A stretch of DNA of 64,000 nt from Oscillatoria nigro-viridis PCC 7112 (GTDB lineage: Bacteria > Cyanobacteriota > Cyanobacteriia > Cyanobacteriales > Microcoleaceae): assembly GCF_000317475.1 (NCBI RefSeq), contig NC_019729.1, forward strand, positions 1,378,501-1,442,500, read 5' to 3'. Below the pieces are notes generated by a model. That model saw nothing but the letters and a program-made list of their open reading frames with translations. It made no database searches and had not been told where the DNA came from. The position numbers were made by a program, and so were the translations under genes. Position 1 is the stretch's first letter, and every line of letters starts with the position of its first letter. Positions 3,500 through 5,479 of this stretch are shown here, in pieces.

Positions 3500-4504
3500 T
3501 TAAAAAGAATAATTATTAACTTCAAAAAGTAGCCTAGTTTGAGGTAAAATCAATCCTGATGCTTCCTCAGTTAACAATTGGTTGTATATTGTATCCGCTT
3601 CGCCAAAAGATTCTTGAGGCAAAAATCTAAATATTGATGCAGCAACATATTGTTTTTCTTTTTCAAAGCTTATCCAGTTTCTTAATAATTGTTCTGCTGC
3701 ATAACCCGTAGTATTAGAACCAGAAAAAATATCTACTACCAAGTCTCCCGGTTCAGTAAGAAAATTTATAAAAAATGACGGTAATTTTTGGGGAAAACGT
3801 GCCGGATGCGCCTTAACATTAAACTCTTTGCACCAACGCAAGTATTGAGAATTACTTTCCGAATTAGAAATTTCTAGCAAATTAGATGGAATAGCACCTC
3901 CATTATCTTTGGAAAATCGATCGCTAATATTGTGACCGGAAGGGCGTTCTTTGGGCGTGTAAAATTCCTCAGCATTTTTCAAAAGTTTTTTCATTCTCTC
4001 AGAATACTCTACTTTGACTTTAGTAATATTCGCTTGAGGCTGATTCGTTTTGGAAAGCCACCAAACAGTATTCACAGAATCTTTAGCCCGGATTTTCTTT
4101 TTATTCACCCACTCTATAGGAGATGGAAGTTTGGAAGGATTAAACCAGAAAAACTCTTGAGCAAGTTTAAATCGATACTCGTCGCATAACCTAATAAGCA
4201 CGCGGTAATTATACAGCGATCGTACAGGTATTCCTTTTTGATAAGCACCTCCAAGGTCTATAACAAAACTTCCAGTATCCTTGAGAACTCTTTTAATTTC
4301 AGGAGCAAAGCCCAGCAGCCAATCAACATATAAATCTTGATCTTCATTTCCATAACTCTTTTGGCGTTGCAATGCAAAAGGAGGGGATGTAATCACCAAA
4401 TCTACAGAATTGCTAGCCAGACTATTCAGGAGATGAAGAGAATCTCCCAAATAAGATTGACCGTATTGGGTGGTGTAAATTGGGGCGGGCAAAATGTTAC
4501 TCAT
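3500..4504 (-). CDS. PvuII-like site-specific DNA methyltransferase (N4-cytosine, beta class)
   Basis: The 334-aa protein has the permuted (beta-class) order of amino-methyltransferase motifs. Motif IV, TSPPF (39-43), is the Ser-Pro-Pro form typical of N4-cytosine enzymes and comes first. The SAM-binding motif VVDIFSGSNTTG (256-267) is C-terminal. Long stretches agree with my recollection of M.PvuII (336 aa), including SPPFALQR, FNPSKLPSPIEWVNK, FYTPKERPSGH and RFSKDNGG. M.PvuII methylates CAGCTG, so that specificity is predicted here. It is divergently transcribed from the cognate nuclease-controller gene across 171 bp holding palindromic candidate operators. No truncation is visible. It presumably protects the host genome. 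Confidence 0.9.
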   Translation of the reverse strand: MSNILPAPIYTTQYGQSYLGDSLHLLNSLASNSVDLVITSPPFALQRQKSYGNEDQDLYVDWLLGFAPEIKRVLKDTGSFVIDLGGAYQKGIPVRSLYNYRVLIRLCDEYRFKLAQEFFWFNPSKLPSPIEWVNKKKIRAKDSVNTVWWLSKTNQPQANITKVKVEYSERMKKLLKNAEEFYTPKERPSGHNISDRFSKDNGGAIPSNLLEISNSESNSQYLRWCKEFNVKAHPARFPQKLPSFFINFLTEPGDLVVDIFSGSNTTGYAAEQLLRNWISFEKEKQYVAASIFRFLPQESFGEADTIYNQLLTEEASGLILPQTRLLFEVNNYSF

Positions 4505-4564: not shown

Positions 4565-4654
4565 CGTACTTTCAGTTTTACTAAATCCGTACTTTCAGTA
4601 CGTTGTATAGTGTATAAATTCTTCGTACCATTCACAAAGCGAACTTTCAGTTCG
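4565..4654. promoter_or_regulatory. Three palindromic C-box-like operators
   Basis: Three 15-bp sites share the core ACTTTCAGT. Site 1 (4565-4579, CGTACTTTCAGTTTT) has a degenerate right half. Site 2 (4588-4602, CGTACTTTCAGTACG) and site 3 (4640-4654, CGAACTTTCAGTTCG) are perfect 6-3-6 inverted repeats. TATAGT (4606-4611) and TATAAA (4613-4618) between sites 2 and 3 are candidate -10 elements for the rightward gene. Restriction-modification controller proteins bind repeated ACT...AGT-type palindromes and autoregulate. The HTH at the N-terminus of the adjacent endonuclease is the obvious candidate ligand, which is inference. Confidence 0.75.
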
Positions 4655-4675: not shown

Positions 4676-5479
4676 ATGAATTACAAAGAAGCCAGACAAC
4701 AATTTGCGGCCAAGGTAAGTCAGTTACGCAGAGAAAAAAGGATGACACAGGACGAGTTAGCAGAACTCATAGACAAGACTACTGACTATATCAGCTTATT
4801 GGAACGCGGTGAAAGATCGCCATCCTTTGAAGTCATTTTCGCTCTAGCTGAAGCGCTCGATGTACCCGCTACTTATTTAATCAGTTTTAGCCAAAGCGGC
4901 GAGAGTACAGCTCTCATTAGCACCCTGATAGCTGAACCTGTTTCTCCGTCAGTTGTAGAGCCTGTTGAAGAGGCTGTTACCACGGAAGCAGAACGCATTT
5001 CAGATGCTAAACGGCTAGAAAATGCTATGAAAAGCATCCAAGAATTGCAAAATCTGGCGAGTGAATATGGTATTGCGGATATTTTTCAAGATAACGGGGG
5101 AAAGACTTTACAGTTATTAATCCTTTTAGGGCTGCGGATATCACCTGGACGTGAAGGAAACGATGCTATTGATGCTGAAGGAAAAGAATACGAACTTAAA
5201 ACAATAAATATTGCTCTCAATAGAAGTGGTGGGGTCACTACTCACCATCATTTGAATGAAATTATACTTGAAAAGTATCGCAGAGTAGAAGCTTGGTATA
5301 TTGGACTGTATGAAGGCATAACTCTCAAAGAGATTTATAAACTTACACCTGAAATGCTGGAACCTAAATTTAAAGAATGGGAAGAAAAGGTGAGGCTAAG
5401 AAACGAGCCCCTAAACAATCCTAAAATTCCCTTAAAGTTAGTTAAAAAAGGGCAACTTGTCTACTCTCACAGTAAATAA
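4676..5479 (+). CDS. PvuII-like restriction endonuclease fused to N-terminal controller-type HTH
   Basis: The protein is 267 aa from the ATG at 4676, which has a GAGGGG ribosome site just upstream. An in-frame upstream start at 4610 would add 22 residues lying over the operators and is less likely. Residues 1-72 form a Cro/C1-type HTH like R-M controller proteins (RREKRMTQDELAELIDKTTD...ERGERSPS). Residues 73-115 look like an acidic linker. Residues ~116-267 align with R.PvuII as I recall it: YGIADIFQDNGGK, then PGREGNDAID with Asp163 and EYELKT with Glu173 and Lys175 (catalytic D...ExK), and the HHH cluster 190-192 that in PvuII lies at the active-site/DNA region. Predicted to cut CAGCTG. 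PvuII itself encodes controller and nuclease separately; here they form one chain. Confidence 0.9.
   Translation: MNYKEARQQFAAKVSQLRREKRMTQDELAELIDKTTDYISLLERGERSPSFEVIFALAEALDVPATYLISFSQSGESTALISTLIAEPVSPSVVEPVEEAVTTEAERISDAKRLENAMKSIQELQNLASEYGIADIFQDNGGKTLQLLILLGLRISPGREGNDAIDAEGKEYELKTINIALNRSGGVTTHHHLNEIILEKYRRVEAWYIGLYEGITLKEIYKLTPEMLEPKFKEWEEKVRLRNEPLNNPKIPLKLVKKGQLVYSHSK

Follow-up and report, generated by a model that had tools for sequence, protein, structure and literature searches.

A locus that encodes a controller protein and an endonuclease as one chain tests how a restriction system avoids killing a new host, since activator, repressor and nuclease are then bound to a single concentration. 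The locus lies in a 64,000-bp stretch of the Oscillatoria nigro-viridis PCC 7112 chromosome (NC_019729.1; hereafter the window), and we asked what the gene is, how its expression would be controlled and how it relates to its counterparts elsewhere. We regard it as highly probable that this is a chromosomal PvuII-type type II restriction-modification system, in which controller and endonuclease share one chain, the methyltransferase is separate and divergent, and expression is self-regulated via C-boxes. The class was published in 2013; the window system is real, intact and largely known.

A controller and a PvuII-type nuclease in one frame

Positions 4676-5479 of the window (forward strand) form a single frame that stays open for 267 codons before its stop, termed here the CR gene, which is assigned as a fused controller-nuclease by its frame, Pfam matches, fold match and homologues. 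The N-terminal helix-turn-helix (HTH) domain, residues 1-72 (4676-4891, +), matches Pfam HTH_3 at residues 16-68 (E 6.7e-15) and is 36% identical to C.PvuII over 64 columns. A linker follows at residues 73-108 (4892-4999, +), and then a PvuII-type nuclease domain at residues 109-267 (5000-5476, +), which matches Endonuc-PvuII (PF09225) at residues 109-263 over the entire profile (1-155 of 155, E 9e-63) and is 51% identical to R.PvuII over 148 columns. When the alignment is read with PvuII residues counted on the PvuII sequence, Asp34, Asp58, Glu68 and Lys70 correspond to Asp139, Asp163, Glu173 and Lys175 of CR, while His83-85 and Tyr94 correspond to His190-192 and Tyr201. These residues serve catalysis and recognition in PvuII, and all of them are kept. 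An earlier note, made from the letters of this DNA, had described a controller-type HTH joined to a PvuII-like nuclease with an intact D...ExK motif (Asp163, Glu173, Lys175) and histidine triplet, and the alignment bears out both halves of that description.

Structure prediction, which the same note had proposed as a check, points the same way. The AlphaFold2 model built with 24 aligned sequences has a mean pLDDT of 79.6, with residues 72-97 below 50 and a helix predicted at residues 104-130, so that the linker of about 36 residues (37 in our script's measure of the distance between domains) is largely disordered in the model. In Foldseek searches the model matched R.PvuII (1ni0_C; TM 0.91 by target length, rmsd 1.5) as well as the controllers C.AhdI (1y7y_A; TM 0.92) and C.BclI (2b5a_B; rmsd 0.9), which are among the best fold matches of the HTH domain.

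No frameshift splits the gene, in agreement with its earlier description as intact. Because the same full-length fusion is present in six other genomes among the 29 of the genus that were searched, and because each of the 15 segment comparisons (five sequences by three segments) gives a dN/dS between 0.03 and 0.32, which indicates purifying selection throughout, a frameshift or assembly error behind the fusion appears unlikely. One homologue (L046, 2681-3481) differs from the window gene by a dS of 0.15 in the nuclease segment versus 0.51 in the HTH and 0.92 in the linker, and by this difference looks like the product of recombination inside the gene.

Adjoining the CR gene and divergent from it is a gene for an M.PvuII-type DNA methyltransferase of 334 residues (3500-4504, reverse strand; PF01555, E 1.2e-43). 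The product, predicted to be an N4-cytosine-type methylase, is 63% identical to M.PvuII over 319 columns. Judged from the sequence, the locus thus combines an intact frame, complete domains, kept catalytic residues, an intact methylase, a conserved box spacing (described below) and purifying selection.

One chromosomal site and the scarcity of CAGCTG

In the window the system lies between leuS and the SAM-hydroxide/hydrolase genes. CR sequence is present in 10 of the 29 genus genomes (seven whole, three broken), in each case beside leuS. The methylase is present in 11 of the 29, full-length in all ten with whole or broken CR and also in genome G402, which has no CR match. Specifically, the G402 methylase (L180, 4199-5197) is 85% identical to that of the window, lies off the usual site and has no CR-type nuclease nearby, and is an orphan. 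Eighteen genomes have neither gene, and in all seven of these that were examined leuS adjoins the hydrolase gene that flanks the methylase in the window. The genus therefore has one chromosomal site for this system, occupied or empty, and vertically stable. A recent arrival as plasmid or phage cargo was rejected on account of this single site and of a blastn search of the nuclease DNA against a phage collection, which gave no match.

The three broken copies raise the question of whether the system is a decaying relic that is leaving the genome. In G388 (L034/L050) the CR gene has lost its start, half of the HTH and both C-boxes, in G386 (L035) an inner stretch reaching roughly from residue 38 to residue 162 is deleted, and in G390 (L036) a broken partial copy occupies the same site. 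All three genomes retain a complete methylase, and the asymmetry expected of toxin-like genes is therefore seen, in that the nuclease half breaks and the methylase stays. Decay would also fit a window genome (8,272,254 bp in six contigs, with a chromosome of 7,479,014 bp) in which only 17 CAGCTG sites are found. However, no part of the window copy is missing, comparison with five homologues shows purifying selection on it, and its methylase and operators are intact, so we consider a relic quite unlikely here.

CAGCTG, which we take to be the target of the system, does not occur in the window (12.6 sites expected), nor in a 464-kb sample made up of the window and 20 stretches of 20 kb from the same chromosome (L188-L207), where 96.5 are expected. 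It amounts at most to an indirect and unspecific footprint of CAGCTG cutting and methylation. We considered this scarcity as proof of an active system and rejected it, because it is the same in non-carriers, is shared by other palindromes and has an exception. Across the 29 genus genomes there are 2-51 CAGCTG sites, unrelated to carriage, with densities of 1.3-7.5 per Mb in the seven genomes with a whole gene versus 0.4-8.5 per Mb in the 19 genomes that have no CR sequence. The control palindrome GTCGAC is equally rare (0-17 in genus genomes), and 11 of the 64 six-base palindromes fall below 5% of expectation in the 464-kb sample. The exception is genome G167, where the system is present yet CAGCTG occurs at 173 sites per Mb. 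Within family f6, a genus with PF09225 in four of nine genomes has 2.5-24 CAGCTG per Mb, as against about 28-470 in other f6 genera, which speaks for a footprint, but several lineages of the phylum sample without a PF09225 match are likewise poor in this site.

Also in favour of a footprint, the depletion in the 464-kb sample does not extend to the core AGCT (1750 seen versus 1795 expected) or to GAGCTC (58 versus 48.9), and every non-palindromic rearrangement of CAGCTG reaches at least 0.72 of expectation. AGTACT and CAGCTG never occur in this sample, CGTACG, GTCGAC, GACGTC, ACTAGT, TTCGAA and others occur one to three times, and CGATCG is very common at 1189; palindrome avoidance thus extends far beyond the CAGCTG system. 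The rarity of CAGCTG is in keeping with long exposure of the lineage to restriction at this site, although it is not specific to carriers. It may also ease the timing problem of the system, because few host sites need protection.

C-boxes and the probable control of expression

Upstream of the CR gene are two C-boxes with perfect palindromic arms, a distal box CGTACTTTCAGTACG at 4588-4602 and a proximal box CGAACTTTCAGTTCG found by sequence scan at 4640-4654, 52 bp from the distal one. A third, weaker box CGTACTTTCAGTTTT at 4565-4579 lies 23 bp upstream of the distal box; it is also visible in L045, L046, L047 and L051 and is absent from the other listed members. These boxes give substance to the operators that the earlier note had ascribed to the gene. 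A candidate promoter read from the sequence, TTGTAT-17 bp-TACCAT (4603-4631, +), would fit exactly between the two stronger boxes; it is weak, with 7 of 12 consensus matches, and was absent from the output of a promoter scanner. When hexamer pairs were scored in 18 representatives, the top pair stopped 6-8 bp short of the proximal box in nine and lay elsewhere in the other nine.

The spacing of the boxes is conserved among fusions with a long linker (36-41 residues between domain matches by the script's measure). We counted box pairs at a threshold of at least 10 of 12 core positions, leaving out L050, in which the promoter and N-terminus are deleted. All 24 testable long-linker fusions have a counterpart of the distal box and a pair at 50-53 bp, with 7 of the 24 also having one at 14-16 bp. 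In unfused relatives, by contrast, ACTNNNAGT boxes stand in tandem at 15 bp, with pairs at 14-16 bp in 41 of 55 loci and at 50-53 bp in 9 of 55. Fusions with a short linker (5-22 residues) have a pair at 14-16 bp in 1 of 17 and at 50-53 bp in none of the 17. This clade-wide spacing of 50-53 bp, versus the 15-bp tandem of most unfused relatives, is new.

A mean profile by single offset does not single out this spacing in the long-linker clade, since its top is at 17 bp (9.25, versus 9.21 at 50 bp). When all four-offset windows are scanned, the peak falls on 50-53 together with the adjacent 49-52. At a threshold of 10 of 12 matches the 50-53 window takes 24 of 24 members (against 8 for the median window and 15 for 14-17), at 11 of 12 matches it takes 23 of 24 (median 1), and with a 15-bp consensus at 20 of 24, derived from the same sequences that it scored, it takes 24 of 24 (median 0). 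Under a stricter rule 23 of 25 long-linker members have a box pair, all 23 including a spacing of 50-52 bp, with none in L057 or in the promoter-less L050. Of 5200 random shuffles that preserved base composition only, 26 contained a box with at least 10 of 12 matches. The DNA between the boxes, on the other hand, diverges across the clade.

A different palindrome is seen in other fusions. A CCGAATATATTCGG-like palindrome replaces the PvuII-type C-boxes upstream of 12 of the 17 short-linker fusions (L067, L069, L072-L074, L083, L098, L100, L108, L111, L117 and L118) and also stands upstream of the separate C gene in one unfused viral relative (L131). The recognition helices in these loci differ as well.

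In PvuII the distal site activates, whereas OR overlaps the -35 element and represses (PMC3695507, in excerpt). By analogy with PvuII and with the Niabella fusion CR.NsoJS138I, distal-box activation and proximal-box repression are most likely here too. The HTH halves of CR would dimerise on the distal box, next to the presumed -35 element, and activate; at a higher CR level the proximal box, which coincides with the presumed start site or lies slightly beyond it, would be filled and bring about repression; and the nuclease halves would cut unmodified CAGCTG in incoming DNA. One chain would then be activator, repressor and nuclease at once. Two cautions attach to this explanation, namely that the HTH has only 36% identity to C.PvuII and that the promoter between the boxes matches consensus weakly.

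The earlier note had argued that the fusion ties nuclease dose directly to its own repression, which is half of the story. CR.NsoJS138I, the one fusion tested in this way, cuts like PvuII and raises expression of a lacZ reporter from its own promoter 23-fold, as Liang and Blumenthal (2013; PMC3850674) report, and positive feedback is for this reason also expected of CR. The further argument, that fusion removes the controller-first delay, finds no support here. In a fusion the controller and the nuclease arrive at the same time, yet this does not have to abolish the delay, because positive feedback from a low basal level would still hold back both activities. The 2013 authors argue that competing dimerisation of the two halves could even lengthen the delay. 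For the wider question of how restriction systems spare a new host, the comparison offers a handle, in that operator spacing differs between unfused systems and long-linker fusions and one origin does not account for the fusion.

Simultaneous occupancy of both boxes is conceivable, since they lie about five helical turns apart and the chain has two dimerising halves joined by a flexible linker. Paired CR dimers would in that case hold both boxes, bridged via their nuclease halves, with the presumed promoter closed into a small loop, the nuclease parked on its own operator and the wide spacing having evolved with the long linker. We think such bridging unlikely; if true, nuclease dimerisation would be part of the off switch, through which the cell would directly sense how much restriction it can exert.

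The frame might instead give two products, with a nuclease freed by an internal start alongside the fusion, or a controller freed by frameshifting or cleavage, so that the system would work like ordinary PvuII; an in-frame ATG does exist at 5027 (residue 118), just within the nuclease domain. This Met118 is present in only 6 of 24 aligned fusions, all of them Microcoleus-type, which makes a conserved second product unlikely on sequence grounds, and a start there would remove the first part of the predicted helix 104-130. The linker has no poly-A/T run of six or more, and the Niabella fusion, made in E. coli, yielded no protein other than the full-length one (PMC3850674). Two separate proteins were accordingly rejected as the main reading, given one frame and an unconserved internal ATG, and we hold a two-product frame to be very unlikely. 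It is more improbable still that the HTH is no longer a controller and acts as a DNA-tethering or stability domain for the nuclease in a constitutive gene. In favour of this, the identity of the HTH to C.PvuII is low and the domain is close to many other XRE proteins, with XRE-type repressors matching almost equally by sequence; against it, two palindromic operators keep their spacing in 24 of 24 testable members despite diverged DNA between them, controllers are among the best fold matches of the HTH and the HTH segment has a dN/dS of 0.03-0.12.

Origins of the fusion and comparison with known systems

A PF09225 match was found in 8 of 386 genomes in a phylum sample. A scan of named genomes gave 203 relatives, and the best 80 of these 203, a set biased to the window's own type, comprise 37 fused genes, 40 with a separate C and three with no C seen; the nearest relative among them is Microcoleus sp. 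FACHB-DQ6. Eight plasmid loci, examined from 41 matched records, include two fusions (both Acinetobacter), five with a separate C and one with none, while the 14 viral-contig loci include no fusion, 11 with a separate C and three without C. The Acinetobacter genes (L037 and L038, on small plasmids NZ_CP137749 and NZ_CP121378) are short-linker fusions annotated merely as HTH proteins, and one of the two adjoins resistance genes.

A quick tree was built from 103 nuclease rows, of which 42 are fused, 55 have a separate C and six have none, with duplicates and partial copies left out. In it all long-linker fusions form one clade of 25 with an SH-aLRT of 100, made up of cyanobacteria and three Chloroflexota records. 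The Microcoleus-type members of this clade and L054 have a divergent methylase, and its remaining members a convergent one. The Chloroflexota records (L055, L056 and L058, two of them named Oscillochloris) are nested inside the cyanobacterial clade, which suggests that the long-linker fusion may have moved between phyla. Short-linker fusions fall elsewhere in the tree, in Saprospiraceae and kin, Bacteroidales/Chlorobiota, Parafilimonas-like bacteria, Acidobacteria and the Acinetobacter plasmids.

A more careful tree of 98 rows needs eight changes of the fused label, five of them forced by well-supported branches; a single change sufficed in 0 of 200 bootstrap trees, in a bootstrap that was not fully settled. 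Monophyly of all 41 fused rows is rejected (AU p=0.009), and with it a single origin of all sampled fusions. How many fusion events there were is uncertain, because the test leaves a common origin of the 17 short-linker fusions standing (AU p=0.056). More than one origin was already suspected by Liang and Blumenthal (2013; PMC3850674).

As the earlier note had correctly stated, fusions of this class were known beforehand. Liang and Blumenthal (PMC3850674) describe five natural fusions of a C protein to a PvuII-type nuclease, three cyanobacterial (Oni7112I, Asp90I and Gsp7428I), one from Meiothermus and one from Niabella. Oni7112I is listed there as the Oscillatoria nigro-viridis fusion, and the window gene is very probably this gene, with probably no difference between the two. 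We found no later paper on such fusions in the open-access literature, which omits most subscription journals. What is new here is comparative, namely the clade-wide operator spacing, the rejection of a single origin and the decay with methylase kept, and it leaves the 2013 class unchanged.

According to the same paper, the three cyanobacterial fusions resemble CR in joining C to a PvuII-type nuclease, in a linker about 25 residues longer than that of the other fusions and in an upstream C-box well off its usual position, the extra linker and box having been noted in 2013. Asp90I and Gsp7428I differ from the window system in having convergent methylases; Oni7112I, like the window system, is outside these two. 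Compared by description in that text, CR.NsoJS138I (Niabella soli) and Mru1279I (Meiothermus ruber), the activity of the latter not having been detected in E. coli, share the domain order and nuclease family of CR, but lack the extra linker. Repression from a position past the start site, as proposed for the proximal box, has a parallel in the C protein of Kpn2I; C.Kpn2I, however, binds within its own reading frame, and the Kpn2I R gene is C-independent (PMC6237814, in excerpt). Finally, PvuII itself (Proteus vulgaris pPvu1, NC_002632) shares with the window a homologous nuclease and methylase, the divergent orientation of the methylase and C-box operators. It differs in that C and R are separate, overlapping genes, as the earlier note had stated and the NC_002632 locus confirms, whereas CR is one frame, and in that its C-boxes are in tandem at 15 bp as against 52 bp in the window.
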